A stretch of 64,000 nucleotides of DNA from Planctomycetota bacterium (lineage in GTDB: Bacteria; Planctomycetota; Planctomycetia; Gemmatales; HRBIN36), in the NCBI GenBank assembly GCA_014584395.1, contig JACTMY010000020.1:62001-126000 (forward strand), read 5' to 3'. The notes under the pieces are model-generated. The model had not been told where the DNA came from. It was given only the letters and a program-made list of their open reading frames with translations, and searched no databases. Shown here piece by piece: positions 10,248-31,277 of the stretch (the stretch's first letter is position 1; every line of letters begins with the position of its first letter). A program made the position numbers and the translations under genes.

Positions 10248-10284
10248 ATCCTGGCAAGTTAACACCTGGCATCGGAGCAGCACC

Positions 10285-11055: not shown

Positions 11056-11496
11056 TCATTTCAGCTTCTTGTCGAGGTTGTTGAGCAGATCGTTGATCGT
11101 CTTCTGCGCGGCGGCCTGAATCAAACCCTTGGGCACCGCCTTGAGCAGGCCGCCAAGCTGCATGACCGCGGCCCGCCAATGCAGGTCCGTCGCCGGGGAA
11201 GCGTCCTGCAAGGTGAACGTCGCCAGCACTTCGCTGGTCGTCCCTATGCCCTTGGTCTTGAGGAGCAGGGTCGACGACGAGGGCGGCACCTGTTCGGAGA
11301 CGTTGATCGAAAGCTGCAGTTCGCCCTTGACGAACCCGAGGCTGGGCCGCAAGACCAGCTCGGCGGATTGATCGCCCACGGCCTTGATCTGCCCCACGTC
11401 GGGGATGCAGTCCACCAGGAAACGCATGTCGCTGAGCTTGGCCCACAGGGTGGCGGCGGGCACGGCAAAGGTCTTGTGGCCTTCCAATTCGATCAT
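11056..11496 (-). CDS. CoxG/SRPBCC-family protein
   Basis: A 146-residue START/SRPBCC-fold protein (MIELEGHKTFAVPAATLWAKLSD, then a CIPDVGQIK strand) of the carbon-monoxide-dehydrogenase-subunit-G-like (CoxG/DUF1857) group. These small lipid- or cofactor-binding proteins occur widely without CO dehydrogenase, and none of the other cox genes is here, so the CoxG name says only fold. The longer frame to 11631 has no conserved sequence and the ATG at 11496 matches the family start. It converges on tpiA with no spacer. Confidence 0.8.
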   Translation of the reverse strand: MIELEGHKTFAVPAATLWAKLSDMRFLVDCIPDVGQIKAVGDQSAELVLRPSLGFVKGELQLSINVSEQVPPSSSTLLLKTKGIGTTSEVLATFTLQDASPATDLHWRAAVMQLGGLLKAVPKGLIQAAAQKTINDLLNNLDKKLK

Positions 11497-11690
11497 GACA
11501 AACTCGCTCTTTGTTGACAGCCGACTTGAAGAGAGGCTCAACGCAAGGCCAAGCGGCCCCGGGTCCACTAGGATTATTCTAGGGAATTCGCTATCGTGTC
11601 GTCGTTGAATGGGCCCCAGGCGAGGCCGCAACCGGCGAACGCGGACGAAGGCCTTCGCCCCTGGCCCCTGACTTTGCGATCGAGGTGTGC

Positions 11691-13268
11691 ATGCCCGACA
11701 AGCCCCGTTTTTATCTGACGACGGCCATCGACTACCCCAACAGCCGCCCGCACATAGGCACCGCTTTCGAAAAAATCGGCGCCGACGTCCAGGCCCGCTA
11801 CCGCCGCATGAACGGCTACGACGTCTTTTTCCTCATGGGCAATGACGAAAACACCGTCAAAGTCTCCAAACGGGCGGCGGAGCTGGGCCGCGATCCGCAG
11901 ACTTATTGCAACGAGATGGCCCAGCAGTTCAAGGACGTCTGGACCGCGCTGGACATCAGCTTCGACGATTTCATCCAGACGAGCGAGCCGCGCCATCACC
12001 AGGGCTGCCGGCTGTTCATCCAAAGGGTCTTCGACGCCGGCTGGATTTACAAAGGCTCGTATGAAGGCCTGTATTGCGAGGGCTGCGAGAGTTTCAAAAC
12101 CGAAAAGGAGATCGCCGAGGCGGGGGGCATCTGTCCGAACCACCGCACGCCGCCGACGCAGCGCACGGAGCCATGCTATTATTTCGCCCTGTCCAAGTTT
12201 CAGGATCGGCTGCTGCGGTTTTACGAAGAGAACCCCGACTTCATCCAGCCCGTCAGCCGCCGCAACGAAGTGGTGAGCCTGGTCCGCGAGGGGCTGCTTG
12301 ACGTCAACATCACCCGCGGCGATCAGGATTGGGGCATCCGCGTGCCCTTCGATGAGCAGTTCACCATTTACGTCTGGTTCGATGCGCTGCTCAACTACGT
12401 CACCGGCGTTGGCTTCGGCACCGACCAGGCCAACTTCGAGAAATGGTGGCCCGCGGACCTGCACTTCATCGGCAAGGACATCACCCGCTTTCACTGCGCC
12501 TTGTGGCCCGCGATGCTGATGGCCGCGGGGCTGCCCCTGCCGCAGCGGGTCTTCGGCCATGGCTTCGTTTACGTCAAAAACGAAGGCACGGGCGTCGTCG
12601 AGAAGATCAGCAAATCGCTGGGCAACGTCGTCGAGCCGATGGACATCATCAGCCAATTCAGCAGCGAAGCTTTCCGCTACTATTTCATGCGCGAATGCCC
12701 CTTTCCGGGGGATGGCGAGTTCAGCTTCAGTCGCTTCGCCGAAGTGTTCAACGCCGAATTGGCCAACAACCTGGGCAATCTCTACAGCCGCTGCGTGACC
12801 CTCATCACCAAGAACTACGGCGGCGAACTGCCCGCGGCGGCGGCGATTCCCAGCGAGTATGTCATGGAGGGACCGGCCCGAGCCGACGTGGTTCGCAAGG
12901 TAGCCGAGCACATCGAAGCGTGCGAATATCATCTCGCCCTGCAGACGCTGTGGCAGCAGATCCTCGATCCCGCCAATCGCTATGCCGACAAGCACGAGCC
13001 GTGGAAAAAGGTCAAGGTCGACCGCGAGGCGACGGCCCTCGTGCTGCGGCAGATGGTCGAGGCGCTGCGCGGAGCGGCGATCCTGCTCAAGCCTTTCCTG
13101 CCCCGCTCGGCGGAGAAAATCTATCGAGCGTTCAACTTCCCCGAGGCATGGGAGCAGGTCGCCTATCGCCACGCGGAAGCGCCCATGCCGCTGGATCAGC
13201 CCGTGCGCTTCATCGGCGCACTGGACGCCAACGGCAAGGTGCCGCCGATGTTTCCGCGCGTCCAATGA
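11691..13268 (+). CDS. metG: Methionyl-tRNA synthetase
   Basis: 525 residues. The class I signatures are PHIGTAFEKIGAD (HIGH) and KISKSLGN (KMSKS). One zinc knuckle is formed by CEGC and CPNH, as in the Thermus-type short enzyme, and the C-terminal EMAP/tRNA-binding domain is absent. It charges initiator and elongator tRNA-Met. GAGG lies five bases before the ATG at 11691; a GTG two codons upstream is also open. The stop overlaps the start of the LOG gene in ATGA, which suggests coupled translation. Confidence 0.97.
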   Translation: MPDKPRFYLTTAIDYPNSRPHIGTAFEKIGADVQARYRRMNGYDVFFLMGNDENTVKVSKRAAELGRDPQTYCNEMAQQFKDVWTALDISFDDFIQTSEPRHHQGCRLFIQRVFDAGWIYKGSYEGLYCEGCESFKTEKEIAEAGGICPNHRTPPTQRTEPCYYFALSKFQDRLLRFYEENPDFIQPVSRRNEVVSLVREGLLDVNITRGDQDWGIRVPFDEQFTIYVWFDALLNYVTGVGFGTDQANFEKWWPADLHFIGKDITRFHCALWPAMLMAAGLPLPQRVFGHGFVYVKNEGTGVVEKISKSLGNVVEPMDIISQFSSEAFRYYFMRECPFPGDGEFSFSRFAEVFNAELANNLGNLYSRCVTLITKNYGGELPAAAAIPSEYVMEGPARADVVRKVAEHIEACEYHLALQTLWQQILDPANRYADKHEPWKKVKVDREATALVLRQMVEALRGAAILLKPFLPRSAEKIYRAFNFPEAWEQVAYRHAEAPMPLDQPVRFIGALDANGKVPPMFPRVQ

Positions 13269-13864
13269 ACCGCATCGATCCCATGATGGAGTCGGCCTTG
13301 AATTCGCCGCGTCCGCATCTCACCGTCTTCTGTGGCTCTAAGCATGGCCAGGCGCCTGTTTTCACGGAAGCGGCGCGGTCGCTGGGCCGCTTTCTCGGCC
13401 AAGAGGGCATCGGACTGGTTTTTGGCGGAGGCCACATCGGCCTCATGGGCGTGATCGCTGACGCCGCCCTCGCCGCCGGCGGGGAAGTCATCGGCGTCAT
13501 CCCGCAATCGATGGTTGAAAGCGAACTGGCCCACACGCAACTGACCCGGCTCGAAATCGTCCAGACCATGCACGAACGCAAGGCCCGCATGGCGGAACTG
13601 GGCGATGCCTTCCTCGCTTTGCCCGGCGGCTACGGCACGCTGGATGAACTGTTCGAAATCCTCACCTGGGCGCAGCTTCGACTGCATCAAAAACCCATCG
13701 GCCTGGCCAACGTTGCCGGCTATTTCCAGCCCTTGCTGCAGTGGATCGACCAGGCCCTCGAAGCCGGCTTCCTCGCCGGCAAACATCAAAAGCTGTTGCA
13801 CGTTGAGGCCGAGCCCGTCCTCCTCGCTCGGAAACTGCTGAGCCTGGCGCCCGCGGTGAGATGA
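13265..13864 (+). CDS. LOG-family nucleoside 5'-monophosphate phosphoribohydrolase
   Basis: 199 residues with a Rossmann-like start TVFCGSKHG, a GIGLVFGGGHIGLMG loop and the signature PGGYGTLDELFE of the LOG/lysine-decarboxylase-like family. Members release the base from adenosine or cytokinin monophosphates. Bacterial homologues are usually annotated TIGR00730. It overlaps metG by 4 nt (ATGA). Convergent with the amidohydrolase array; no clear terminator is seen in the 166-nt gap. Confidence 0.9.
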   Translation: MNRIDPMMESALNSPRPHLTVFCGSKHGQAPVFTEAARSLGRFLGQEGIGLVFGGGHIGLMGVIADAALAAGGEVIGVIPQSMVESELAHTQLTRLEIVQTMHERKARMAELGDAFLALPGGYGTLDELFEILTWAQLRLHQKPIGLANVAGYFQPLLQWIDQALEAGFLAGKHQKLLHVEAEPVLLARKLLSLAPAVR

Positions 13865-14030: not shown

Positions 14031-15515
14031 TCAGCGGGCGTCAACGTCGGGATAGAGGCGGTCTTCCGAGCGATCGTAAAAGACCTTGCCGCCGATCATG
14101 GCCTGTTCCACCCAGGTGCGGTAATCGAGGGGCGGGCCGTTGAGGATGAGCAGATCCGCGTCCTTGCCGACTTCGATGCTGCCGACGCGATCCGCCAATC
14201 CCAAGATGCGGGCGGGGACGATGGTCAAGGAGGCGAGGGCTGCGGCTTCGCTGGCGCCGCCGCGAACGGCAAAGGCGGCCTCGAGGCCGAGGCTCGTGAG
14301 GTCGCGCCCGGCAATACCGTCCAGGCTGACCGAATTACCCAGCGAGGCGACGGCAAAAGGAACGCCCGCTTTCTCCAGAATCCCCGACATTTCGATGGAA
14401 CTGCCGGTGTCGTCCTCGCGGCCCAGTTGCGGCCGCCGGCGGCTGCGCGGCGTGATGACGACGGGCACTTTGGCTTGGGCCAGGTCGTTGGCCACGAGCC
14501 AGCCTTCATGCACGTTGTCGAGCACGAGCGGATAGTCCAATTCCTTGGCCATCTCGATCATCTCGCGGATTTGCTGCGCCGAGGAGGCTTCGGTGCGCAG
14601 AGCGACTTTCTTTTCGACGAGCTTGATCACCTCGTCCGACACGGGCCGGCTGGGCGGCGCCCCCGGCATGCCGTCGGCGGTGTCGGCTTCATGAAGGGAT
14701 TGATCCTTCAGATATTGCTTGGCCCTGCGGATTTGCTCGCGCCACTGATGGCGATTGAGCGGCGAGGCAAAAGCGCCGGCGGGCAGATGATAGAAGGGGC
14801 TGTCCTTGACGAGCATCGCATCCAACTCGCCATAGGTCATCTTGAGCACGGCGTGGCGGCGCGGGGTTCGCTCCGTCGGCACCGGGGGCGTGATCGGCTC
14901 CGTTGAGAGGATCGTCAAGCCGCAGCACGGGCACAGGCTCGTTTCGTCTTCCACGTCGCGGCCAAAACGGCCCATCGGACCGGCGGCCACTTCCACGCAG
15001 GTCATGGTGATGCCGATGCCCAGGCAATATTTGAGATTGCGATCATAGGGATTGAGCGCGTCGGCGAAGCGGCCTTGCCGGCCGCCCGCGCCGGGACCGG
15101 GAGGGCCGCCGCCGCCCTGGCCGCCGCCCAAGGTGCGCACGCCCACGTTGGCGGCGGTCATGGCGATGAAACCGGGCGTGATGCATTTGCCCTTGGCGTC
15201 GATGACAACGGCCCCTTCAGGCACGGCCACATCCTGACCCACTTGGAGAATTTTGCCATCCTTGATCAGGATGGTGCCGCGACGGATGACCTCGCGCGTG
15301 ACGGTGTAAATGTCGCCGCCGACGATGGCCGTGATCCCGGCTCCGGGAGGAGCGGGTTTGGGCGGCGCCGGCTTGGTCGCCTCGGGCTTGGCCGGCACGG
15401 TGGCCGTGGGTGGAGGGGCGGGTTTGGTGGATAAGCCATCCTGAGCCGCCGATGACCAGCTCCAGGTGATCAGGCCCAAACAGGCCAAGGTCAAGTAGGG
15501 GAGTTTACCGCGCAT
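14031..15515 (-). CDS. Exported amidohydrolase-fold protein, metal ligands lost (array member 7)
   Basis: 494 residues; last gene of the array. It has a signal peptide, a Pro/Lys-rich linker (about 30-60) and the N-terminal beta-sandwich strand pattern (GTILIKDGKILQVGQ). The strand-1 motif is TPGFIAMTAANVG where an active enzyme has PGxxDxHxH, so both histidines are absent. The barrel has a cysteine cluster CPCCG and a Gly-rich loop. The C-terminus keeps LADRVGSIEVGKDADLLILNG. The family His on strand 5 and the terminal Asp are also not evident. The ATG at 15515 overlaps the previous stop by 11 nt; a TTG at 15533 was rejected. Probably non-catalytic or with a different chemistry. Confidence 0.8.
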   Translation of the reverse strand: MRGKLPYLTLACLGLITWSWSSAAQDGLSTKPAPPPTATVPAKPEATKPAPPKPAPPGAGITAIVGGDIYTVTREVIRRGTILIKDGKILQVGQDVAVPEGAVVIDAKGKCITPGFIAMTAANVGVRTLGGGQGGGGPPGPGAGGRQGRFADALNPYDRNLKYCLGIGITMTCVEVAAGPMGRFGRDVEDETSLCPCCGLTILSTEPITPPVPTERTPRRHAVLKMTYGELDAMLVKDSPFYHLPAGAFASPLNRHQWREQIRRAKQYLKDQSLHEADTADGMPGAPPSRPVSDEVIKLVEKKVALRTEASSAQQIREMIEMAKELDYPLVLDNVHEGWLVANDLAQAKVPVVITPRSRRRPQLGREDDTGSSIEMSGILEKAGVPFAVASLGNSVSLDGIAGRDLTSLGLEAAFAVRGGASEAAALASLTIVPARILGLADRVGSIEVGKDADLLILNGPPLDYRTWVEQAMIGGKVFYDRSEDRLYPDVDAR

Positions 15516-16812
15516 AGACTGTTTTCCCTTCAATCATGGTCGCACGCAAGCGGCTGCGGGGATCGAGCGGGTCGCCATCGATGATCAACAGGTTGGCCAG
15601 CTTGCCAGGTTCGAGTGTACCAAGTTCCTTGTCCAAACCCAAGAGGGAGGCGGGTCGTTGAGTTAAAGCGGCCAGGGCGGCCTGGCGCGGCAGCCCGGTC
15701 TTCACGGCATAAGCAACGGGAAAGAGCGGGAAGTCCTGGCTTAAAAATTGATCCGTGGGGCTGCTTCCCCCTCCGCCCATGGGGCCGGGCGAAGAGGACG
15801 CCAGCAGGCTGAAGCTGAATTCGTGGCCGTCTTCATGGAGCAGGCGGGCCACGTTCATGCGATCGCGGCTGTTGGGCCGCATGTCCAGCCCGGGTTGGAG
15901 GACGATTTTCACGGGTCGGCCCTTCAAGGCCTCGCGGGCTTCGTACAGGCTGTCGCCGCTGGCGAAGATGACGAGCTTGAGGTTCTTGTGCGTCTCGACC
16001 AGCTTGAGCACGTAGAGGATCGTGGCTGAGTTGTTCGCGGAGACGACCAGGGGCGTCTTGCCCTCGACCAGGTCGCGCCACACTTGCAGGTTCGCCGCCG
16101 CTGCGGCGGCCGCGGCGCCGCCCATCCCGCCGCCGGCTCCCGGGCCAGGCCGCGTGGGCGTCGGCCCGCCGGCGCCGGAGGCACCACCCGTCGTGCGGCC
16201 GCGCCCGGCCAGGTCCAGCCGCGTCCGCAATTGGTCGAGGCTTTCCGTATTATTCGTCACACTGGCAAAGACCACGCCGTCCGCTTTCCAGAGCATCTGG
16301 TCGGGCTGTTGGGGCGTCAATTGCACCATGGCCGACTGTCCCATGCCATTGGTGATCAGATTCAGCGTGGTCAAGCCCATGCGATTGAGCGGCTTCAGCC
16401 CCGGATCGTAGGGATAAAAGCTATCGGCGACGCGGGTGAAACCGCGGCCCGTCGTCGGCAGGCTGGGGATTTGCACCACGCGCCCGCGAATCACCATCGT
16501 GCGGGGGGCTGCGTCGGCCGCGGGGCCGGCGATGGCCACTTCATAGAGCGGCTCAATGAGGCCGGGCATGATCGTTTGGCCCGCCGCGTCGATGATCTGG
16601 GCGTTGTCGGGAATTTTCACGTCGGCGCCCACGGCTTCGATCTTGTTGCCGCGTATCACCAGCGTGGCGTTTTCCAGACGGCCGGCCTTGGCCATCGTCT
16701 CGAGCGCGGCTCGGCGATAAACCACCACGGCTTCGGGGTCCGCCGCTTCGAGGCGGACGTGGCCGATTTGGACGAGGCCAACGAGGGCTAAAGCAATCGC
16801 GAATCGCATCAT
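15505..16812 (-). CDS. Exported amidohydrolase-fold protein, metal ligands lost (array member 6)
   Basis: 435 residues with a signal peptide (MMRFAIALALVGLVQIGH). The strand-1 motif reads MPGLIEPLYEVA, so HxH is lost. In place of the strand-5 histidine is VVSANNSATI, and the next strand reads LKLVIFASGD where the intact member has IDHG. The C-terminal LGTLEPGKLANLLIIDGDPLDP is well kept. An Ala/Gly-rich insert (GGGMGG and a run of alanines) sits in mid-barrel. It starts 36 nt after array member 5 and overlaps member 7. Predicted periplasmic pseudoenzyme; role unknown. Confidence 0.8.
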   Translation of the reverse strand: MMRFAIALALVGLVQIGHVRLEAADPEAVVVYRRAALETMAKAGRLENATLVIRGNKIEAVGADVKIPDNAQIIDAAGQTIMPGLIEPLYEVAIAGPAADAAPRTMVIRGRVVQIPSLPTTGRGFTRVADSFYPYDPGLKPLNRMGLTTLNLITNGMGQSAMVQLTPQQPDQMLWKADGVVFASVTNNTESLDQLRTRLDLAGRGRTTGGASGAGGPTPTRPGPGAGGGMGGAAAAAAAANLQVWRDLVEGKTPLVVSANNSATILYVLKLVETHKNLKLVIFASGDSLYEAREALKGRPVKIVLQPGLDMRPNSRDRMNVARLLHEDGHEFSFSLLASSSPGPMGGGGSSPTDQFLSQDFPLFPVAYAVKTGLPRQAALAALTQRPASLLGLDKELGTLEPGKLANLLIIDGDPLDPRSRLRATMIEGKTVYAR

Positions 16813-16848
16813 GGCATGGCCTTGGCAGAAAAGTGAAAAGCTCCCAGA

Positions 16849-18129
16849 TTAAAAACGGCGCCGATCCTTCTTGACGTCATAGATGATGGCGCCATCGATG
16901 AGCACCATGGTCACGTAATGCCGTGGATCGAGGATGGAGCCGGTGCTGATGACGATGTCGGCGTCCTTGCCCACTTCCAATGAGCCCACGCGGTGCGCCA
17001 CCATGAGCGCTTTGGCCGGCTCGATGGTCAGTCCGCGAAAGGCCGCTTCTTCCGTCCATCCCATGCGCACGGCCATGGTGGCCTGGAAGGCCAACTCTTC
17101 CTGCGGCACCACGGGGGCGTCCGTGTTCACGCCGAGCGGCATCGTGAAGTTGCGGCGGCGATACTCGGCCACGATCCCCTTGATCTGGCCTTCCGCCGGG
17201 TCGTAACGGAAGCCGCGCGGCCCGACCATGACCGGAATGTTGCGCTTCTTGATTTCATCCGACAACAGGTAGCTGTCGAACGTGCCATGGTCGATGACGA
17301 CCTTGAGGTTCATCTCGTCATGGAGGATGCGCAAGGTGGACATGACAATGGGATAACCTTGCGTGTGCACGACGACGGGGACTTCCTGGCGGAACAGGGG
17401 CTTGTAGTATTCGAGCCGAGGGTTGAGGTCGGGTTTGGTCGTGCGCCGCCCCGATTCGAAATCATCCCAATCCTTGACGTAGCCCATGCCCTCGCGGAGG
17501 GATTCGCGGATGACGTGGTTCATGCCCATGTAGCCGGAGCCGACTTCGCCGCCGCGGCGTTCAGGGTTGCCGGCTTGGGCGATCTTGAGCACGCCGGGAA
17601 AGCGGATGAGCACGTCCTCCAATTTGCCGGGGCCGGTTTTCATCATCGCCCCCCAGCCGCCCATGTTGGTGCCGCTGCCGGGAATGAAGCAGATCGTGGT
17701 GACGCCGCCGGCGACGGCGACTTTCAACTGTTCGTTGTTGGGTCGGATTTGATCCAGGACCCGCAGCTCCGGATTGGTTTGAAAGACCATTTCATTCAGA
17801 TCGCCCGTGCCGCCCACGTGGCTGTGGGCTTCGACGAGGCCCGGCATGGCAAAGCGGTCGCTGAGATCGATTTCTGTGTAGTCGGCGGGCACCTTGATCT
17901 CGCGGCGCGGGCCAATCGCTTCGATCTTGCCCTTGGCGATCAGGATGGTTCCCTGGTCGATGGGGTCGCCCGCGCAAGTGATGATTTTGCCCAGGTGCAA
18001 GGCCAGGTTGGGCTTGTCGGCGCGGGCGGACAGGCTAGCCGGTCCCGATGGGGTGGCCGAGCGCGGCAGATCCTGAGCGGGCAGGAGCGTGCAGAGACTC
18101 AGACAACTCAATAAGAGCAGGGAACGCAT
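16849..18129 (-). CDS. Exported imidazolonepropionase-like amidohydrolase, ligands intact (array member 5)
   Basis: 426 residues. This is the only array member with a plausible active site: MPGLVEAHSHVGG (HxH), VVVHTQG (strand-5 His), VIDHG (strand-6 His) and VNTDAPV (strand-8 Asp). The signal peptide is MRSLLLLSCLSLCTLLPAQ, with a possible lipobox at LLSC. The N- and C-terminal beta-sandwich halves are standard (GTILIAKGKIEAIG; VGSLEVGKDADIVI). Related enzymes hydrolyse cyclic amides, dipeptides or N-acyl compounds, so the substrate is open. Its ATG overlaps the stop of member 4 by one base (TAATG), which implies translational coupling to a pseudoenzyme. Confidence 0.88.
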   Translation of the reverse strand: MRSLLLLSCLSLCTLLPAQDLPRSATPSGPASLSARADKPNLALHLGKIITCAGDPIDQGTILIAKGKIEAIGPRREIKVPADYTEIDLSDRFAMPGLVEAHSHVGGTGDLNEMVFQTNPELRVLDQIRPNNEQLKVAVAGGVTTICFIPGSGTNMGGWGAMMKTGPGKLEDVLIRFPGVLKIAQAGNPERRGGEVGSGYMGMNHVIRESLREGMGYVKDWDDFESGRRTTKPDLNPRLEYYKPLFRQEVPVVVHTQGYPIVMSTLRILHDEMNLKVVIDHGTFDSYLLSDEIKKRNIPVMVGPRGFRYDPAEGQIKGIVAEYRRRNFTMPLGVNTDAPVVPQEELAFQATMAVRMGWTEEAAFRGLTIEPAKALMVAHRVGSLEVGKDADIVISTGSILDPRHYVTMVLIDGAIIYDVKKDRRRF

Positions 18130-20777
18130 TAGCGATCATCCTCCATTGAATGGACCCATTGTCCATCGATCATGACGGCGATAACCCGGGTGGCGGCGTC
18201 GAAGGGCGGACCGCTGAGCACGACCAGGTCCGCGTCCTTGCCCGCGGCCAAGACGCCGATCCGTTGGTCAAGCCCCAGCAGTTGCGCGGGGGTCGTGGTT
18301 AAGCCCGACAAGGCGTCGTCGGCGCCCAGCCCTTGCCGCACCGCGTAACGCAAGGCGCTAGGCAGTTGCTGCACGCCCGTGGCCGCTTGCGACTGGAAGG
18401 CGAAGGGGATGCCCGCGTTGGCCAGGCGCAAGGGCAGGTGAATCGTCTCGCGGTCCACGGTGCGTATAAACTCCGGCCCCGCGATCACGCTGACGTCCTT
18501 TTCGGCGAGCGCCGTTTCCATGCGATGGGCATCGTCCGCGCCGACGAGCACGGTGCGCACGTTGAATTCATCGCGAAAGATCGTAACCGCCAATTGGATT
18601 TGATCCAGGCGGCGGGCTTCGACGAGTGCCGGCATCTTGCCGGCGAAGAGGGAGCGATAGGGTTCGAGCACTTCGACGAGTTGCGGCTTCTGCGGCGCCT
18701 TCGGCTCCGGCGGCAGACTCTCGCTCGGCCCCTTGGCGGGAGCTGTCGAGCCTTCCGCGGGTTTCTTCTCTTCCGGCTTTTTCTCTTCCGGTTTCTTTTC
18801 CTCCGTGGCTTTCTCGTCGGGCTTCTTTTCCTCGGTTTTATTCTCTTCGGGTTTCTTTTCTTCGGGTTTGCTGGCTGGGAGCTTGGCTTTCAGGGCGTTG
18901 TATTCCGCCAACTTTTTCTGATATTCCTCGTTATCCCGTTCATACTGGGTCCAGGCATCGGCATAGGCTTTGCCGGAGCGAAGGGCGTCGCGCAGGGTTT
19001 GCCCGGTCATGGTGAGATTGCCCGAAACCTGGAAGCGAATGGCCGCCGGGTCCTTGAGCACCTGGGGACGATCGCTGAGCTTGAAGGCGACGACGGGACT
19101 GGGGCCGGCCTGTTCGATGCTCAACAGCACGCTGGTCACGCCGCCTTGCCGGGCCAGGCGCACCTGGGGATCGCTGGTGAGCAGGTATTCGCCCAGTTTG
19201 GTGCCGAGGGTGGCGTTGCCTTGCGGAGCGCCGCCCAGACCCAACTTGGCGCCCATGTCAAAGAAGCCCGGGACGATGACGGCTTGGCCAAAATCATGCA
19301 CGGGGCAATCGAGCGAAGCGGAAACGCTGCGGCCCACGCCGCGGATGGTGGAGCCATGAATCAACATTTGCCCTTGCTCGATCCGTTGGCCGTCTCCCGT
19401 GTAAATCTGGCGGGCCTTGAGCAGCATCGGCAAGGGTTTTGACTTGACCGCTTTGGGCAGGTTGGCGTTCGCGGCGGAGTAAACGTTTTCTCCAGCGATG
19501 AAGACCTGATCGATGCGGGAACGAGCGGCAAAGGGCGGGCCAGAAAGGACGACGAAATCCGCTTGTTGACCGGGTTCAAGGGTGCCCACGCGGTCGCCCA
19601 GACCCAGCAAATGAGCCGCATGGCGGGTGACGAGGCTCAAGGATTCATCCACACTGAGGGAAGTGCGATAAGAGCTGGCCAGATAGAGCAGGTCCTTCAG
19701 GTCGGCGTCTTGTTGGGGCCGCAGGGCGACGGGGATGCCCGCGTCCAGGAGCCAGCGGGCCTTTTCCTGCGAGGTCATGGGTTTCGGGGCATCCTCCTCC
19801 GGCACGGGCACTTCCTGAATGGCCCCGGCGCGCGCGTCGGGTTGCAGGATGACGCCGATCACAACGTCCTTCCACTGTTCCAAGGAGGTTCGAAACGGCC
19901 GCAGGTCGCCGGGATCGACCAGGATGAGCTTCAGGTTGAACTCGCGGGCCAAGGCCAGGGCGGCGCGCATGTCCGCCACCGTGGGGGTCGTGATCCGAAT
20001 GGTTTTGCCCGGCTTCATGTACTCGGCGATCACGTCCAGGGCCGACTCGGAGAGGTCGCCCGGAAGCGGACCACCGGGTTGACCCGCCGCCTGGAAAGCG
20101 GCTCGCAGTCCCGCGACGACGCTGGCCAGGCTGCTGCCCAATTGGGGTTTGGTCGGGTCCAAGGGTTTGTCAAAGGAGACCGCGCCGATGGGGGGCTCAT
20201 AAATGCGCGGGGCATTGCGATAGGCGCTCCCCAAGAGAATCCGCAGACTCTCGCGGTCTTTGAGGGTGCGGCGTTCGGGATCGCTTCCCGCGGTTTGCAC
20301 GACCGCGCCTTGGCCCGGCATCAAGCGGCGCGTGCCTGGCGCGACTTGGACCGTGGTGACGCCGCCGGCGAGCAGGGGTTGATAGTCCTCATAAAAATTG
20401 AAACCGTCCAAGGCGCGGACCTCGGGGGTCAAGGTTTGCACGTCGTCGCGGCCCCGCTCGGCCAGGCTCGTTTCCGCCGCGATCAAACCGGGCATGAGAA
20501 ACGCCTTGCCCAAGGGATGGACCTTGGCATGGGCCGGGTAGGCGGGCTGGTGATTGCGCATTTCCCCCACTTCCTTGACCTTGCCGCCTTCCACGATCAG
20601 GTAGCCATGGTTGATGGTTTTCTTGCCGGTCCAGATCGTTTGCGCGACATAGACGTCCGTGGCCGCCGTCGATGGGGGCGAAAGCGTGCCTTGACTGGCC
20701 GCCCAGAGCCATCCTGGCAATAAAGCCGCCAGCCAAACCCAGCGCAGCGACTTGCCGTGGAAAAGCGATCGTTTCAT
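18129..20777 (-). CDS. Exported tandem amidohydrolase-fold protein, both domains without metal ligands (array member 4)
   Basis: 882 residues, two amidohydrolase-like domains in one chain after a signal peptide (LRWVWLAALLPGWLWAASQ). Domain 1 has MPGLIAAETSL and domain 2 VPGFFDMGAKLG where HxH should be, so neither can bind metals in the usual way. Strand-5 His is Thr or Ala. Each domain keeps its GVTTVxxxP/GVTSVLL loop and C-terminal sandwich (VGTLEPGQQADFVVL; IGVLAAGKDADLVVL). A low-complexity Glu/Lys/Pro segment lies inside domain 2. The ATG at 20777 begins a good signal peptide; the frame is open to 21104 but overlaps the upstream gene. Confidence 0.8.
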   Translation of the reverse strand: MKRSLFHGKSLRWVWLAALLPGWLWAASQGTLSPPSTAATDVYVAQTIWTGKKTINHGYLIVEGGKVKEVGEMRNHQPAYPAHAKVHPLGKAFLMPGLIAAETSLAERGRDDVQTLTPEVRALDGFNFYEDYQPLLAGGVTTVQVAPGTRRLMPGQGAVVQTAGSDPERRTLKDRESLRILLGSAYRNAPRIYEPPIGAVSFDKPLDPTKPQLGSSLASVVAGLRAAFQAAGQPGGPLPGDLSESALDVIAEYMKPGKTIRITTPTVADMRAALALAREFNLKLILVDPGDLRPFRTSLEQWKDVVIGVILQPDARAGAIQEVPVPEEDAPKPMTSQEKARWLLDAGIPVALRPQQDADLKDLLYLASSYRTSLSVDESLSLVTRHAAHLLGLGDRVGTLEPGQQADFVVLSGPPFAARSRIDQVFIAGENVYSAANANLPKAVKSKPLPMLLKARQIYTGDGQRIEQGQMLIHGSTIRGVGRSVSASLDCPVHDFGQAVIVPGFFDMGAKLGLGGAPQGNATLGTKLGEYLLTSDPQVRLARQGGVTSVLLSIEQAGPSPVVAFKLSDRPQVLKDPAAIRFQVSGNLTMTGQTLRDALRSGKAYADAWTQYERDNEEYQKKLAEYNALKAKLPASKPEEKKPEENKTEEKKPDEKATEEKKPEEKKPEEKKPAEGSTAPAKGPSESLPPEPKAPQKPQLVEVLEPYRSLFAGKMPALVEARRLDQIQLAVTIFRDEFNVRTVLVGADDAHRMETALAEKDVSVIAGPEFIRTVDRETIHLPLRLANAGIPFAFQSQAATGVQQLPSALRYAVRQGLGADDALSGLTTTPAQLLGLDQRIGVLAAGKDADLVVLSGPPFDAATRVIAVMIDGQWVHSMEDDR
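18759..18870 (-). repeat. 15-nt minisatellite encoding EEKKP repeats
   Basis: About seven imperfect copies of a 15-nt unit code for PEEKK/TEEKK/PDEKA-type pentapeptides within array member 4. The tract is highly charged and likely disordered, and it splits the second amidohydrolase-like domain. Such tracts change length by slippage. Confidence 0.8.
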
Positions 20778-20833
20778 CGTGTGGTTCAACCTTGTTCGTT
20801 GCGATGCTTGTGAGCCGATGTTCTTAACCTTCT

Positions 20834-22228
20834 TTATTTTTTGGCATCCGATTGCAGCAGCCCCTTGAGCTTGCGATCTTGTTCGCGATCGTAAACCACT
20901 TGGCCGTTGACGATGGTTTTTTCCACCCAGGTATCGATCTTGAGCGGATCGCCGGAGAGGATGATCAGGTCCGCATCCTTGCCCGCTTCCAAGGTGCCGA
21001 CGAGCTTGTCCGCGCCGACGGCCTGGGCGGCGCGCCGCGTGATGGTGTCCAGGGCTTCCTCCTCGGAAGCGCCGTATTTCACGAGCGTCGCGGCCTGATA
21101 CCAAAGGAAGTTGGTGCCCAGGGTGGGGGGCAGGTTCGGCTGCCGGAACAAATTCCCGCTGCCGATGCCGGTCACTTGCAAGGCGACGGGGATTTTATGT
21201 TCGCGGTAGACTTCGGGCAGAATGATCTGCTGATCTTCGCCGGTTTGCGGCTGCGTTTCCCAAAAGACGAGCGTCGGCTCCAAGATCACGGGCAAACCGC
21301 TGGCCGCGACCAGCTTGGCGGCTTTGTAGCAATCCCGGTCCAGCACCAGAACGGATTTAAGGCCATACTCCTTGGTCAATCGCAAGGCCTGCGGCACGTC
21401 CATGGCCAATTCACAATAGATGAAGGCCAGGAGTTCGCCTTTCAGCAGACTGGCCAAGGCGGCCCGCACCTGCGCGGCATCCACATTGCCGGCATCGGGT
21501 CGCGGCGCGGTGCCGCGCTGGCCGCGCGGCGGCCGCTGAAACCCGTTCGTGGTCGAGCCGTCGTCGTCCTTGGGTTCGCGGCTGGCGTCCGAACTGGCGG
21601 CGGTGGGTTTGGGGGAGGATTTGGCCTTTTCCTCCTCGAGGAAGATTCGGGCCGCGTCCAATTCCTTCCGGAGCGCCGCCATATGGCTCATGCGGCTGCG
21701 TTCGGCCGTGGGCTTCAGGGAGATTTTGATCCCGGCGCCGCGCTTGAGGATCATGTCGTTGACCGTCACGCCCGCCGTTTTGACAATCGCACCCTGGCCG
21801 CCGAACATCGTGTTGTTCCCGGGGAAGATGGCCACGGTGGTCACGCCATTGCGGCGGCATTCATCGAAATACTCCTGGCTCGGATCGATGCCGTCGATCA
21901 CGGAGAGGAAGGGCGTGTTGGGGTTCGTCTCATTGGTCTGATCCATGCCGCGCGAGCTGTGCGCCTCGATGAATCCGGGCATGATCACCTTGCCCTTGGC
22001 GTCGATGACCTTGACGTCCGGGGGAATGGCCACGTCCTTGCCGATGGCCTCGATTTTGCCATTGCGAATCAGGATCACCCCCTCTTCCAGGGCGGGACCA
22101 CTCATGGGAATGATTTTCCCGCCGCGCAGGGCCAGACTTTCCTGGGCCGCGACGGGAGCGGAGGTCATCCCCCAGCCCGCGAGCAGGACCCATCCCAAGA
22201 CGTGCACGTGGATTCGCCGACGCATCAT
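20834..22228 (-). CDS. Exported amidohydrolase-fold protein, one metal histidine kept (array member 3)
   Basis: 464 residues with a signal peptide. The strand-1 motif MPGFIEAHSSRG keeps the first histidine of HxH but has Ser in place of the second, an intermediate state between member 5 and the others. The strand-5 position reads AFIYCELAMD, strand 6 VLVLDRD, and no TDAP-like strand 8 is present (LQVTGIGSGN). The N-terminal GVILIRNGKIEAIG and C-terminal VGTLEAGKDADLIIL are canonical. A charged linker around KSSPKPTAASSD interrupts the barrel. The next gene follows after 56 nt. Catalysis with two metals looks unlikely. Confidence 0.82.
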   Translation of the reverse strand: MMRRRIHVHVLGWVLLAGWGMTSAPVAAQESLALRGGKIIPMSGPALEEGVILIRNGKIEAIGKDVAIPPDVKVIDAKGKVIMPGFIEAHSSRGMDQTNETNPNTPFLSVIDGIDPSQEYFDECRRNGVTTVAIFPGNNTMFGGQGAIVKTAGVTVNDMILKRGAGIKISLKPTAERSRMSHMAALRKELDAARIFLEEEKAKSSPKPTAASSDASREPKDDDGSTTNGFQRPPRGQRGTAPRPDAGNVDAAQVRAALASLLKGELLAFIYCELAMDVPQALRLTKEYGLKSVLVLDRDCYKAAKLVAASGLPVILEPTLVFWETQPQTGEDQQIILPEVYREHKIPVALQVTGIGSGNLFRQPNLPPTLGTNFLWYQAATLVKYGASEEEALDTITRRAAQAVGADKLVGTLEAGKDADLIILSGDPLKIDTWVEKTIVNGQVVYDREQDRKLKGLLQSDAKK

Positions 22229-22265
22229 GACCGATCACCTTCCCCTTGAAGATGGATAAACGAAG

Positions 22266-23438
22266 CTATTTTTTGCCGTGCCATTGTCCTTGAGTCATCA
22301 CCCAAGCGACACCCGTGGTTAATTCAAATGGATCGCCGGTCAAAGCCAGCAGGTCGGCGTCTTGACCGACGGCGATGGTGCCCACGCGGGATTCCACGCC
22401 GAGCAGCCGGGCGGGCGTCTTGGTGATGGCTTCTAAAGCCACGCCCTTGGGGCAGCCGAAACGAATGGCGAAGCGCGCCTGATCCAGCAAATGGCCGCCC
22501 GTGAACGCGAAGGTCACTCCCGCGTCGTGCAATTCGCCGCCCTGATTCCAAAAGACTTCGCTGCCTTCCGTGGCCGTGCCGGCTTGCGTGGTCACTTTCG
22601 TCAGCAGGACCGGCACTTTGGCGGAGGCCAACGTCTCCTTGACCTTGTAGGCTTCGTTGCCCTCGACCAGGACGGGCGTGAATTGATAATCCTTGCCCAA
22701 ACGCAAGAGGCTGAGAATGTCCGAGTCGATGCGGCTGACGCCGTAGATGGTGCGCTTGCCCGTCAGCGCTTCGTGAATGACGCTCGGCGTTCCGTTCGTC
22801 GACGCCTGGGCGGAGGCGAAGGTTTGCCGGAGCATCCAGACCACGCCCATGCGATTGGTGGGTTGCCGAACGTAGATGCTGTCCGGCCGCTGCCGCGACG
22901 AGTTGCGATTGGCGGGATCGGAAGCCACCGTGATGACCAGGCCGCCCGCTTCGACCAGGGTGCGCTGCGCCAGCGGCCCAGCCGTTTTGACCACGGCCAG
23001 TTGCCCGGAGATGACGTTTTCCGTGCCGGGCATCAGGCCCAACGTGGTCACGCCTTCGGCAAGGGCTTCCCGGAAGCTGCGCGACTGCCAGTTGATCGCT
23101 GTGTGGACCTTGTAGTTAGGCGTGAGTTCCTGGGTGATTTCATTGACGCTCGATTCGATGCCGACTTGACTGCGGGCATCGACCAGGCCGGGGATGAGCA
23201 CGCCCTGAGACAAATCGATGACCTTGACGCCCTCCGGGGCAGCAATCTCCGCGGCCACCTCAACGATTTTCCCATTCTTGACGTGGACCATGCCGGGAGC
23301 CAGGGGAGCGCCGGTGAGCGTGTACACCTTGCCCGCGCGAATGAGCCACTCTTCCGCCAAGAGGGAACGGGGGCCGGCGAGGAATCCCGCCAGACCGAGG
23401 ATCAAGAGAAACCGAGGAAAACCTGGTAGCCGCATCAT
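22266..23438 (-). CDS. Exported amidohydrolase-fold protein, metal ligands lost (array member 2)
   Basis: 390 residues, the shortest member, with signal peptide FLLILGLAGFLAGPRSLLA. The strand-1 motif is IPGLVDARSQVG: the spacing of DxHxH is kept but the histidines are Arg and Gln. The strand-5 and strand-6 positions read YGVSRIDSD and TPVLVEGNE, and strand 8 is FAFTGGH, without the Asp. The C-terminal VGTIAVGQDADLLALTGDPF is intact. It starts 66 nt after member 1 and precedes member 3 by 37 nt. Confidence 0.82.
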   Translation of the reverse strand: MMRLPGFPRFLLILGLAGFLAGPRSLLAEEWLIRAGKVYTLTGAPLAPGMVHVKNGKIVEVAAEIAAPEGVKVIDLSQGVLIPGLVDARSQVGIESSVNEITQELTPNYKVHTAINWQSRSFREALAEGVTTLGLMPGTENVISGQLAVVKTAGPLAQRTLVEAGGLVITVASDPANRNSSRQRPDSIYVRQPTNRMGVVWMLRQTFASAQASTNGTPSVIHEALTGKRTIYGVSRIDSDILSLLRLGKDYQFTPVLVEGNEAYKVKETLASAKVPVLLTKVTTQAGTATEGSEVFWNQGGELHDAGVTFAFTGGHLLDQARFAIRFGCPKGVALEAITKTPARLLGVESRVGTIAVGQDADLLALTGDPFELTTGVAWVMTQGQWHGKK

Positions 23439-23504
23439 GTATCACAACCCATGGAGTAAGTTGAAGCGATCGGTATTAAGCCACCGCGTCTTCGCCGCAC
23501 CGGC

Positions 23505-25850
23505 TCAAGGCTTTTCGACCAGCCGACCCTGCACGATCACGTATTGGGGCTTGGACTGCAAATCCAAGGGCGATCCCGTCCAGATCACGCAGTCGGCGTC
23601 GCCGTCGGGCCGCCATTGGCCAAAACCCTCGGGCAGGCCCAGCAAGCCGTCGGGTCCGCGCGTCAGGCCAAGCAGCGCTTTTTCCGGAGTCAGCCCCATC
23701 TGCACGGACAGGCCGGCCATCAAACGCAGCTCTTGCCCCGTCCCCATGCCATAACCGATGGGCCATTGGCAGCGGGCCAGCCAGGCGCGCCATTCGTGGG
23801 CGGCCTGCAGCCATTGCTTGGGACCCAGAATCACTCCCAGCGAGCCCGGCTCGGCATCCCATTCCGCGTGGCGGATCTCGAGCGGTTCGATCAGCAGGCT
23901 GCGCAGTCGAAACGCGCGGCTCAATCGCAGCGCCGCATCCGACTCCGCTTGCGAATCCACCACCCAAAAGGCCGTTTGTTTTCGCTCCAGCAGGGCTTGG
24001 ATCGATTGTTTCTGCTGCTCATTGAGCTTGGTTCGCATGGATTCGGGCACATACAACTGCCAATCCATGGTGCGGCCGAGCAGGGACTCCGACGCCAAAT
24101 CAATCTGCCCCGCCAGGCTCGATGGAAAGCGATTGGCATCGCGGGAGGCTCCCGTGAAGACGAACTGCTGACCTAGCGCCGCCTGGACCACGTGCGGCGC
24201 GGCGGACAAGCGGATCAGCCCGGCTTGCCCGCTCAAGACTTGCTTATGCGGCGGCGTCAAGACGACGTGGGTGAAGCCTTGTTTGCGGAAGGCTCGCACC
24301 CATTCGGCCTCCGGATCAAACTCATCCACGGCGCGCAGATGGCTGGCATGAGCATCCGCTTCTTCGGTGGCCAGGTTCGGGGCAAAAGCCGCCGCGAATA
24401 AGCCGGGCGTGATCGGACCGTCGCCGCAGTCGTAGATCGGGTAGCCCGCGGTCTCGGCGGGGCGCGCGGTCAGTGAAACGATTTTGCCATTCTCGATGAC
24501 CAGAGCGCCGGGTTGAAATTGGCCCTGCTCGTTCAGGATGCGGTTCGACTTGAGGACGAACTTGGCCGGCAGCGGATCGGGCAGGGAGACCGTCGCCGTT
24601 GTTGAGCTGGACTTCGCCTTGGGGGCGGCGAGAGGGTTCGCGGGTTGATACGTGATCTTGCCTTGCGCCATGGTCAAGCGCACAGGCACGGACGGATCGA
24701 GCGGATCGCCGGCAAACACCGCCAAGTCGGCGGAACGGCCGGGAGCCAGGCTGCCCAAACGGTCGGCGACGCCGAGCAGTTCCGCGGGATAGAGGGTGAT
24801 CGCCTTGAGCACCTGGTCGGCGGGCAGGCCTTGAGCCACCGCGACCGCGGCTTGGGCGCGGAGCAGGGTCGTGGCTTGGGAGCGCTCTCCAAAAGAGCCA
24901 AGCATCCATTTCGATGAGTCGGTGAGCAGGGATTTGGGCCAGTCGCGTTCTTTTTTCCGCTGCGACGCCCCCCAAATGGAACCCGTGCCAAAAGGCCCGA
25001 GCACCATGGGCAGGCGGCGGTCGCGGAGGGTTTCCGCCGTCAGCCGCGGCTCGCTCACGCCTTCCAGGATGAGGCGAATTTTGAAATCTTCCTGCAGCTT
25101 CATCGCTCGGCGCAGGTCGTCCTCAAAGTGAGCTTCGACGCGGAGCGGAATCTCCCCTTTCAGCACCCGCACAAGCTGTTCCTTGACGGGATCTTTCTGA
25201 GAGGGTTTGCTTGTGCTATACGTCTTGGCGGCGTCGAGTTGGCCGCGGAGTTGCTGGAATTGAGCCTGCCGCTGCAAGGAATTGGCCGTTCCTTGGCCGA
25301 CGCCGAGGCTCGCTTGCAGCCAGGCGGCTTTTTTGATGATCCATTCGGCCGTGTCGTGTCCAGGGGAGACCGCGAGCACGGCCCCCAACCCGCCAAACGT
25401 GCCCGAGGCGGCGGGCTGCACGCCCACGGCCGTGATCCCCTGGGCGGCGGCATCACTCCAATCGTCGCTAAAAGGGTCGACCGCATCGAGGATATCGAGC
25501 GTGCCATCCCGGCCGCCTTCCCGGGCCGAAGCGGGATGGAGCCGCACGACGCTGCGGGCATCGAACAAGCCGGGCGTCACGACGCAGCCGGTGATGTCGA
25601 TGACTTCGTAATCCCCGGTCCATTTCTTGGCGCGGCTGATTTCCTTGATCTTGCCGTTTTGAATCAGAATGATGCCTTCAAACGTGCCCTCATCCGTTTG
25701 CGTGATGATGGTTCCCCCCACCAGCACGATCGGTTTTGTACCTTGCGGCGGAGCGGATTCATGAAGGGCGTTGGCTGTGTGGTTGAAGTGAATCCCATAA
25801 AGCGTGAGTGCGCCACAACACACTACCCAAAACCAACTTCGGCGAGTCAT
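23505..25850 (-). CDS. Exported tandem amidohydrolase-fold protein, both domains without metal ligands (array member 1)
   Basis: 781 residues; first gene of the array and the one next to the likely promoter. It has an N-terminal hydrophobic signal (WFWVVCCGALTLYG) and two amidohydrolase-like domains. Domain 1 has TPGLFDARSVV, close to member 2, and domain 2 TPGLFAAAFAPN; both lack HxH. Domain 1 keeps the C-terminal LGSLAPGRSADLAVFAGDPLDP. Domain 2 ends in GDADCVIWTGSPLDL. The shared DAR motif suggests members 1 and 2 descend from one already degenerate ancestor. Whether it folds as a covalent pseudo-dimer is inference. Confidence 0.8.
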   Translation of the reverse strand: MTRRSWFWVVCCGALTLYGIHFNHTANALHESAPPQGTKPIVLVGGTIITQTDEGTFEGIILIQNGKIKEISRAKKWTGDYEVIDITGCVVTPGLFDARSVVRLHPASAREGGRDGTLDILDAVDPFSDDWSDAAAQGITAVGVQPAASGTFGGLGAVLAVSPGHDTAEWIIKKAAWLQASLGVGQGTANSLQRQAQFQQLRGQLDAAKTYSTSKPSQKDPVKEQLVRVLKGEIPLRVEAHFEDDLRRAMKLQEDFKIRLILEGVSEPRLTAETLRDRRLPMVLGPFGTGSIWGASQRKKERDWPKSLLTDSSKWMLGSFGERSQATTLLRAQAAVAVAQGLPADQVLKAITLYPAELLGVADRLGSLAPGRSADLAVFAGDPLDPSVPVRLTMAQGKITYQPANPLAAPKAKSSSTTATVSLPDPLPAKFVLKSNRILNEQGQFQPGALVIENGKIVSLTARPAETAGYPIYDCGDGPITPGLFAAAFAPNLATEEADAHASHLRAVDEFDPEAEWVRAFRKQGFTHVVLTPPHKQVLSGQAGLIRLSAAPHVVQAALGQQFVFTGASRDANRFPSSLAGQIDLASESLLGRTMDWQLYVPESMRTKLNEQQKQSIQALLERKQTAFWVVDSQAESDAALRLSRAFRLRSLLIEPLEIRHAEWDAEPGSLGVILGPKQWLQAAHEWRAWLARCQWPIGYGMGTGQELRLMAGLSVQMGLTPEKALLGLTRGPDGLLGLPEGFGQWRPDGDADCVIWTGSPLDLQSKPQYVIVQGRLVEKP

Positions 25851-26352
25851 GATGCAGTCTCGAGGATGGTCATTACAGCGGAAGGATCAATTCTGATAGA
25901 GTAAACTCTCCGGCCTGCCCAGGACAAGCAAAATGATTTGGGATTAAGTACATTTAATCGATTTGGGAGCAATTATAACCACTAAGGTCGCACCGGAGGC
26001 AGTCCATCGGTGCACGGCCAAGCCCGAGGTTCAAACAAGTTGCAAAGCCGCAAGGGATCGGGAGAGGGGGATTGTAGCCCAAGGCTGGCAGATTCGATGG
26101 TGGCGAAGTGCGCGCCTTTTGGGGTAAAATAGGGTTCGCGCCTAAAGAAGCCCTCGACTGCAACGAATGAAAAATAACGAAGCACCGGCCAACGCAGCGG
26201 CTTCAGTTTAATGCCTCATCTGAAACCGCACGCCTTGGCCGTGGTAGCTTCATTGATCGATGAAGCGAAACAGGTGAAACACAGGATGGCACAGACGATG
26301 AGCCGTTTGGCTGAAGTTGGCAGCGCCTCGGGTCGTTGTTCCTGGATGTGAT
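25851..26352. other. 502-nt divergent intergenic region
   Basis: No gene is supported here. The region separates the amidohydrolase array (minus) from the FHA protein (plus). An AT-rich island at about 25930-25985 contains TATAAT on the minus strand (plus coordinates 25972-25977) without a convincing -35. On the plus strand TAAAAT occurs at 26125-26130. A 14-codon open frame at 26167-26211 has no support. Confidence 0.5.
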
Positions 26353-27738
26353 ATGTTCAATACGTGGCTCACGATGCGGCAAATCGACGAGGCCTTGCAG
26401 GAAGGCCGCTTGGACGATGCCTTCCAATTGGCCAACCATTCCAAGGTGCGCGGCTACCATCACGCGGGAGACTTGCTGCGCACGCTGGGTTTGGCCTTTC
26501 TGGAACGTGCTCGCTTTCGGATCAAGCAGAAAGAGATGGTCGAAGCCTGGCAGGATTGGCAGCACGCCCAGGAACTGAGCATCGATCCCCCCCTGCTGGC
26601 CAAGGTCAAGGGAGAATGGCAGGCCGCTGTCCATGCGGAATTACGGCAAGGCATGGAGGCGCGTCAGCTTAAAAATGTCCTCGAACAACTGCAGCGTTAC
26701 CGCTCCCTGGGTCTGCATGACCCGGATTTGCCGCGCTGGGAAGAGCTGTGCAAGGCATGGTTGGCCGCGGATGAATTGGTGCAAAAGGGCGAGTTGGCTT
26801 TGGCTTTGAAAAAGCTGGACGCCGTGGACGTGAAGGACGTCAAGGCGTGTGCTGCTTTTCGCGAGGAACTCTTGCGGCAGCAGATGCGCTTCTCCGAAAT
26901 GAAGATGTCTCTGCAGGATGCGTTGGCCCAGGAGCAGTGGCGCGAAGTGATCCGCTTGGCGGATCAGTTGCTGGTGATCGCACCGCAAAATACGGAGCTG
27001 CGCCGCGTTCGCACGGCTGCCTGGCGGGAATTGGAACCGGCCACCTTGATTCATTCGCCGCCGCCCAAGCGAAAAGAACCGCCGGTGGAGCCTGCGCCGC
27101 TCCCTGAGCCTGCCCTGCCGCGGAGGTTTATCCTGTGGGTGGATGGCAGCGGCGGCTATCTGGTCTGCCTGGATCGCCGCGTGAGTCTCGGCCAGGGGGC
27201 CGAGGGCAACGTCGACGTGCCCATCATGGCCGACATCTCTCGCTTGCATGCTTACATTTGCCGGGATGGTGAAGGTTATCTGTTGGAAGCCGTTCGTCCC
27301 GTCACGCTGAACAAAAAGGCCATAGAAAAAACTTTGCTCAAGGATGGGGACGTCTTCTGCCTGGGGGCCCATTGCCATTTGCGGTTTAACCAGCCGGTAT
27401 CCGTCAGCAACACAGCGACGTTGAAGATACTCAGCCCGCATCGTTTGCCGTTGGCGCTGGATGGCATCATTCTCATGGACGAAACGTGCCTGCTCGGCGA
27501 TCAGGGGGAAGTTCACGTCAAGGTGCCGGGGATGCTGAAACCCTTGGCGATTCTCAAGAAAAGGGACGAGTTGTGGGTGCAGTCGGCGCGGCTATTTCAG
27601 ATTGATGGGCAAGAAGTCAAAAACCGCGGCGCCCTGCAATTGGATTCCACGATCACGGGGGATGATTTTCGCATCAGCCTCGAACCTGTGAAAGGGCAAC
27701 CGATCGCGATCAAGGCCCCGTCTCGGCCGCGCAGCTAA
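26353..27738 (+). CDS. FHA-domain protein with helical N-terminus
   Basis: 461 residues, cytosolic. Residues 1-220 are helical and repeat-like (TPR-type pairs such as RLDDAFQLANHSKV and EQWREVIRLADQLL). A Pro-rich linker follows, then a forkhead-associated domain with LGQGAEGNVDV, the ISRLHAYI phosphothreonine-recognition segment near 296 and the LKDGDVFCLG turn. A second, beta-rich module closes the protein. FHA domains bind phosphothreonine, so it may be a substrate or adaptor of the kinase encoded next. The ATG at 26353 was preferred over a TTG at 26317. Confidence 0.8.
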   Translation: MFNTWLTMRQIDEALQEGRLDDAFQLANHSKVRGYHHAGDLLRTLGLAFLERARFRIKQKEMVEAWQDWQHAQELSIDPPLLAKVKGEWQAAVHAELRQGMEARQLKNVLEQLQRYRSLGLHDPDLPRWEELCKAWLAADELVQKGELALALKKLDAVDVKDVKACAAFREELLRQQMRFSEMKMSLQDALAQEQWREVIRLADQLLVIAPQNTELRRVRTAAWRELEPATLIHSPPPKRKEPPVEPAPLPEPALPRRFILWVDGSGGYLVCLDRRVSLGQGAEGNVDVPIMADISRLHAYICRDGEGYLLEAVRPVTLNKKAIEKTLLKDGDVFCLGAHCHLRFNQPVSVSNTATLKILSPHRLPLALDGIILMDETCLLGDQGEVHVKVPGMLKPLAILKKRDELWVQSARLFQIDGQEVKNRGALQLDSTITGDDFRISLEPVKGQPIAIKAPSRPRS

Positions 27739-27880
27739 CGGATAAGGCAAGACCAGCCTGAATCAAGGGAAAACAGGGGTTGGATCAGGAAAAAACGCCG
27801 CGGCATGGGGCAGCGGCAGCGGTGAAGGAAAACGCCAAGATTTAGGCCAATGAAGGCGCCTTTGCGGCGAATAATCAATG

Positions 27881-27923
27881 CCGCGCGGGTTCGGCGGGAC
27901 GAAGAACTCCCGCCGGCGCGCGG
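27881..27923 (+). promoter_or_regulatory. Strong hairpin in the leader of the Ser/Thr kinase gene
   Basis: Two nested arms pair: CCGCGCG (27881-27887) with CGCGCGG (27917-27923), and CGGCGGG (27892-27898) with CCCGCCG (27909-27915), around a 10-nt loop. It ends five bases before the AGAAGGGA ribosome-binding site of the kinase, so it could limit translation or stabilise the message. There is no T-tract, so it is not a terminator. Confidence 0.5.
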
Positions 27924-27940
27924 TCAGAAGGGAACCAGCC

Positions 27941-29536: not shown

Positions 29537-29613
29537 TCAGGGCAGGTGCCGTCGAGGCCGCCAAGGCCATACCGCTTCCTTTGCGGCTGGACGCATGGAT
29601 CGTGAGGTTTGGC

Positions 29614-30480: not shown

Positions 30481-30562
30481 TGCGCATGCCGCGCTGGCGG
30501 CATCCAGAGGCGCTCAGGAAGCCCGCATGGGTTGCTTGTCGCCCGGCCCGGCATGACTTAAC

Positions 30563-31213: not shown

Positions 31214-31248
31214 TCCGTATAACGCTGCCTGAGATCGGAGATCGAAGA

Positions 31249-31277
31249 CCCGCGCCGACCCAACGGCGCGGGTTTTA
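31249..31277 (+). terminator. Rho-independent terminator after the ECF sigma gene
   Basis: A perfect 9-bp stem CCCGCGCCG / CGGCGCGGG (31249-31257 and 31264-31272) with a six-base loop is followed by TTTTAT. The T-tract overlaps the stop codon of the convergent PP2C gene. Confidence 0.9.

Follow-up and report, generated by a model that had tools for sequence, protein, structure and literature searches.

Nine amidohydrolase-fold domains in a conserved Planctomycetota gene array, one with an intact metal site

Several enzymes are known to work together with inactive relatives, and they provide the context for an array of seven adjacent genes, g1 to g7, coding for amidohydrolase-fold proteins in a 64,000-nucleotide stretch of a Planctomycetota bacterium genome (contig JACTMY010000020.1, positions 62,001 to 126,000; hereafter the window). 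The closest precedents are the pseudo-dihydroorotase/aspartate transcarbamoylase (ATCase) complex, the CRMPs and Csd1:Csd2, none of which has eight inactive partners. Pseudomonas aeruginosa ATCase needs an inactive pseudo-dihydroorotase for the activity of the hetero-oligomer (PMC7053772). It resembles the organization proposed here in that an inactive amidohydrolase-fold chain is part of a hetero-oligomer, but its active partner is a transcarbamoylase and not an amidohydrolase paralogue, and there is just one type of inactive chain. This complex is cytoplasmic. The CRMPs, or dihydropyrimidinase-related proteins, have the amidohydrolase fold, have lost most metal ligands and form heterotetramers of several paralogues (PMC4051505); they are animal cytosolic proteins, whereas the array combines a single active paralogue with eight inactive ones in an apparent bacterial operon. 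Helicobacter pylori Csd1:Csd2 is a heterodimer of an active metallopeptidase and a paralogue with incomplete metal ligands (PMC5053510), but it has the M23B/LytM fold and one inactive partner as opposed to eight. Trypanosoma AdoMetDC is activated through heterodimerisation with a dead paralogue, the prozyme (PMC5201418), again with another fold, a single partner and a eukaryotic host. Enzyme:pseudoenzyme pairs are known, but the literature searched, which covers few subscription journals, yielded no description of this array or of any eight-to-one set whose order is fixed throughout a phylum.

The seven genes lie on the minus strand between 14031 and 25850 of the window, in the order g1 to g7 from 25850 downwards, and encode nine amidohydrolase-fold domains, two each in g1 and g4 (Table 1); we refer to the nine positions as slots g1a, g1b, g2, g3, g4a, g4b, g5, g6 and g7. 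All seven open reading frames (ORFs) are intact and all seven products have Amidohydro_1/Amidohydro_3 matches above the curated Pfam cut-offs, in agreement with an earlier note on this DNA, made without database searches, which had located nine such domains in seven consecutive genes. An NCBIfam scan gives partial matches only, far below the cut-offs, and no usable function for the array proteins. The intergenic gaps from g1 to g7 are 66, 37, 56, -1, 36 and -11 nt and, because they stay between -11 and 66 nt, the genes very likely form a single operon. Hydrophobic N-termini are present on all seven window proteins and on most relatives (the latter measured on stop-to-stop ORFs), which suggests that the array products may be exported from the cytoplasm. 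Chance similarity to amidohydrolases was considered and is ruled out by full-length profile matches to PDB entry 3ooq, and further excluded by the recurrence of the same slots and the same ligand losses in ten named loci and phylum-wide.

Only g5 retains an intact metal site. The strand-1 motifs are as first read, with HxH confined to EAHSHV, and the protein encoded at 16849-18129 is likewise the only one with an intact strand-5 His, strand-6 His and strand-8 Asp, as the earlier note had claimed. K182, a ligand missing from its list, is also invariant, such that the complete g5 set (H, H, K, H, H, D) is unchanged in 11/11 phylum-wide sequences and in 11/11 near relatives. The strand-4 Lys is a carboxylated bridge in two-metal amidohydrolases, and K182 is a probable carboxylated bridging ligand by alignment. 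Conservation near the g5 ligands is 0.78 against a mean of 0.65. Pfam matches to Amidohydro_1 and Amidohydro_3 (E 6e-12 and 1e-11) include the flanking beta-sandwich segments. Among PDB structures g5 is best matched, over its full length, by the Thermotoga maritima amidohydrolase 3ooq, with E 4e-49 by phmmer and 4e-63 by profile. The two proteins have identical ligand sets; 3ooq differs from the array in being matched only as a single intact-site protein. The matches that follow 3ooq are mainly superfamily members that act as dipeptidases, carboxypeptidases or other hydrolases, no more than a hint as to the substrate class. g5 is thus a predicted two-metal amidohydrolase.

The eight other slots share the fold, as seen in the Pfam matches and in the g3 and g4 profiles, whose top structure match is also 3ooq (E 1e-55 and 2e-45). 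AlphaFold models of g3 and g4 built with 8-9 sequences are of low confidence (mean predicted local distance difference test scores, pLDDT, of 51.6 and 65.7), and while Foldseek places 3ooq as the best match of both, their pockets and domain packing are unreliable. The full ligand set is absent from every sequence of g1a, g1b, g2, g3, g4a, g4b, g6 and g7 in the ligand tables, both for near relatives and phylum-wide. The site loss previously described for six proteins is therefore real, and is better counted as eight of nine domains; the GVTT loop described for all domains is loose in g1b, g6 and g7. No His or Cys occurs among the invariant residues of g1, g2, g4 and g6. H90, K168 and C272 of g3 are kept in near relatives, and phylum-wide the Lys is present in 11/11 and the His in 9/11, with a variable strand-5 residue. 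A more complex pattern is seen with g1b, which in loci L070-L073 keeps HxH and the Lys and has lost the remaining ligands, and which in L069 retains every ligand (His, Lys, His, His, Asp) except the second His of HxH; the L069 domain is presumably inactive. As the g1b ligand states differ by lineage, the ancestor had a more complete site, which was then lost piecemeal and in different ways in different lineages. The most divergent slots are g1b and g6, with mean identity 0.26.

Conservation near the former ligands of these eight slots is 0.42-0.56, compared with 0.45-0.57 overall, with a small phylum-wide excess in g1a and g4b; alignment error lowers the near-ligand values in divergent slots, and the argument drawn from them is for that reason only moderate. 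The likeliest exception to this lack of preferential pocket conservation would be g2, in which the pocket-side strand-5 and strand-6 residues S235, R236, G260 and E262 are conserved together with the long RQPTNRMG stretch, which is RPTTRMG-like phylum-wide. Its RMG is common to g5 and 3ooq and is therefore a family feature. The strand-6 position is an invariant Gly in g1a and g4b, and slot-specific invariant residues include RPDSIYVRQPTNRMGVVW in g2 and YEPPVGAVS in g4a. The C.CC of the g7 CPCCG motif is invariant in ten near g7 proteins and missing from distant ones, and the motif was rejected as a metal site on these grounds.

G001 and G005, two genomes from the same family, carry all seven genes in unchanged order at 37-77% identity. 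Scanning genome contigs with the g5 alignment yields ten named loci, two of which are the G005 and G001 contigs, in records titled Gemmatales, Pirellulaceae, Planctomycetaceae, Pirellula and Planctomyces as well as metagenome-assembled genomes, and the order is the same as far as the contigs extend. These loci and the phylum-wide matches reject confinement of the array to the genus of the window. Searches within 392 sampled Planctomycetota genomes give a g5 match at E <= 1e-100 in 101 and a g3-profile match at E <= 1e-50 in 115, the latter count including weaker matches to other slots. g3 is present in 97 of the 101 g5 genomes, and in 86 of the 101 the two lie no more than 12 kb apart on one contig; contig breaks explain some of the g5 genomes with no g3 nearby. 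Thirty contexts were compared, five of which are cut by a contig end, and the order g1a, g1b, g2, g3, g4a, g4b, g5, g6, g7 is seen in 25/25 of the uncut ones, where the slots of distant loci are assigned partly by position (gene order and hand-picked ORFs), because a neighbouring slot's model is often the one assigned to g6, g4b and g1b domains. The gene order that the earlier note had suggested seeking in other planctomycetes is thus widespread. One genome, G098, has two g5/g3 pairs on separate contigs (C63 and C339) and probably carries two arrays.

In a phylogeny of 113 domains, drawn from eleven arrays and from related proteins, the members of any one slot group as a single clade (support 0.82-1.00 over the nine slots), and the pairwise identity matrices of the slots correlate with a mean r of 0.81, as expected if the slots were inherited as a unit. 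Given one clade per slot, the simplest reading is that the nine lineages would predate the divergence of the sampled families and have been inherited together, although the array could conceivably also have moved between lineages as a whole. All seven genes are under purifying selection, strongest on g5: the ratios of non-synonymous to synonymous substitution rates (dN/dS) for g1 to g7 are 0.17, 0.18, 0.14, 0.14, 0.054, 0.13 and 0.094, for the single genome pair G001-G005 with dS of 0.55-0.95. There are no systematic stops or frameshifts: the listed g5 matches read through without an internal stop, and in near and distant relatives the array ORFs are open. Three weaker g3-profile matches have one in-frame stop each (G107:C126, TAG; G320:C401, TAG; G345:C208, TGA).

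Seven contexts (L077, L085, L086, L087, L091, L092 and L095) contain the g5 slot in two to five tandem copies, each with HxH, with no obvious multiplication of the other slots. Duplication of g5 alone is what one would predict were a single set of non-catalytic partners to serve several catalytic subunits. The genome of the window also encodes a 1385-residue three-domain protein (G000:C19, L025:4173-8330, minus strand) that is inactive-active-inactive by its ligands, a form present in other genomes too, and two-domain proteins of 870-888 residues join an HxH domain to one lacking HxH (L096:8668-11304, L097:9233-11896 and L100:9164-11773). This repeated fusion of an active and an inactive domain in single chains supports physical association within the array. 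The nine lineages, with one common ancestor, would be well suited to the question of what keeps inactive paralogues in a genome; they include g1b at differing stages of ligand loss, and there are families that multiply only the active slot. The array also offers a setting for many proteins that will be annotated as amidohydrolases despite the missing metal site.

The anatomy of the array is close to certain, and from it we infer how it may work. The scenario we favor, with a probability of roughly 0.55, is a hetero-oligomer of the g5 metallohydrolase with the eight non-catalytic paralogues as partner subunits. The array would be an old co-inherited operon encoding an exported hetero-oligomeric amidohydrolase, in which g5, with its predicted metal ligands (HxH, Lys, His, His, Asp), would be the catalyst; acting outside the cytoplasm, it would probably hydrolyse amide or similar bonds of peptides or small molecules. 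g1a, g1b, g2, g3, g4a, g4b, g6 and g7 would have lost catalysis and been kept as non-redundant partner subunits that may fold around, stabilise, position or gate g5. Active and inactive paralogues are co-inherited as a unit, as looked for in an enzyme:pseudoenzyme hetero-oligomer, and of the three functions raised in the earlier note (binding proteins, a hetero-oligomer around one enzyme, or a new chemistry) this one fits best because of the fixed order, the co-inheritance, the single-copy pseudo slots and the duplication of the catalytic slot only. That note's idea of a conserved fold with a lost site kept for function is supported well beyond one genome, and its suggestion of pocket binding is weakened. 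We suggest more tentatively that this is a phylum-wide exported complex of one catalytic amidohydrolase and eight inactive paralogues in fixed positions, in which new activities could be gained by duplicating the catalytic subunit alone. Several points weigh against the hetero-oligomer: contact between g5 and its partners is deduced indirectly and both AlphaFold models are of low confidence, co-inheritance and fixed order also suit a pathway or separate binding proteins, the conserved former-pocket residues of g2 (SR, GGxE and RPTxRMG) would fit ligand binding, and near-ligand conservation in divergent slots is alignment-dependent.

An unlikely alternative is that the eight non-catalytic domains act as individual exported proteins that bind or sense ligands with the old barrel pocket, to capture substrate or to signal, in the pathway of g5 and not in a single complex. 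The conserved pocket-side residues and RQPTNRMG stretch of g2, the invariant strand-6 Gly of g1a and g4b and the hydrophobic N-termini of all window proteins are consistent with it, but pocket binding in general is weakened because in the pseudo slots residues around the former ligands show no clear excess of conservation over the rest, apart from the small phylum-wide one in g1a and g4b, and the fixed order with no slot loss across the phylum exceeds what separate binders need. A new metal-free active site, by which some or all of the eight would catalyse other reactions, is improbable; the slot-specific invariants of g2 (RPDSIYVRQPTNRMGVVW), g4a (YEPPVGAVS) and, in near relatives, g7 (C.CC) are compatible with such a site, but the barrel mouth has no conservation peak, the Cys motif is missing from distant g7 proteins, and g1, g2, g4 and g6 have no invariant His or Cys. 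That same absence, with the g3 His kept in only 9/11 and its strand-5 residue variable phylum-wide, makes it highly unlikely that the eight are active hydrolases with a displaced metal site, in spite of H90, K168 and C272 in near g3 relatives and the nearly complete L069 g1b; displaced but complete sites, which the earlier note had named as a way for its reading to fail, are not visible by sequence. Its other concern, decay, fares worse still. Decaying duplicates carried beside an active gene might account for the piecemeal g1b losses and the divergence of g1b and g6, but they are scarcely credible given dN/dS of 0.09-0.18 for the six genes other than g5 (0.05-0.18 across all seven, for the one pair), frames open in near and distant relatives and an old clade for each slot, and decay as a present state is refuted by the selection and distribution data.

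Table 1. Domains of the array and metal ligands of g5, in window coordinates
Feature	Position	Strand	Basis
g1 domain a, non-catalytic amidohydrolase-fold (DARSVV)	24576..25850	-	Pfam, ligand table, slot clade support 0.93
g1 domain b, non-catalytic in window (AAAFAP)	23505..24575	-	ligand table, tree; some relatives retain partial metal site
g2, non-catalytic (DARSQV), conserved stretch RPDSIYVRQPTNRMGVVW	22266..23438	-	ligand table, alignments
g3, non-catalytic (EAHSSR); only strand-1 first His and strand-4 Lys kept	20834..22228	-	ligand table; 3ooq profile E 1e-55
g4 domain a, non-catalytic (AAETSL)	19431..20777	-	ligand table, profile match to 3ooq
g4 domain b, non-catalytic (DMGAKL), Lys/Glu/Pro-rich inserted linker	18129..19430	-	ligand table, profile match to 3ooq
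g5, sole intact metal site; predicted two-metal amidohydrolase (EAHSHV)	16849..18129	-	3ooq matches, invariant ligands
g5 strand-1 HxH (H102, H104)	17818..17826	-	alignments
g5 strand-4 Lys K182 (GVLKIAQ)	17584..17586	-	invariant; aligned with 3ooq Lys
g5 strand-5 His H255	17365..17367	-	alignments
g5 strand-6 His H281	17287..17289	-	alignments
g5 strand-8 Asp D337	17119..17121	-	alignments
g6, non-catalytic (EPLYEV)	15505..16812	-	ligand table, invariant-residue list
g7, non-catalytic (AMTAAN), CPCCG motif	14031..15515	-	ligand table, alignments

The g4 start is probably the ATG at 20777 rather than the TTG at 21104, the segment upstream of the ATG overlapping g3, and that of g7 is probably the ATG at 15515. 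The linker of g4 domain b (residues ~640-700 of the product of 18129-20777) is repetitive and Glu/Lys/Pro-rich, and differs in length among relatives.

Among the flanks examined, of which the upstream ones are short, there is no conserved flanking gene, and the shared clusters are mostly antisense frames of the array. The ORF at 26317-27738 has no Pfam match. By Pfam, the neighbours at 7185-13864 and 26317-32915 include a PSCyt1/PSCyt2/PSD1 protein, triosephosphate isomerase, a possible lysine decarboxylase family protein, a protein kinase and a SpoIIE/FHA/GAF protein.

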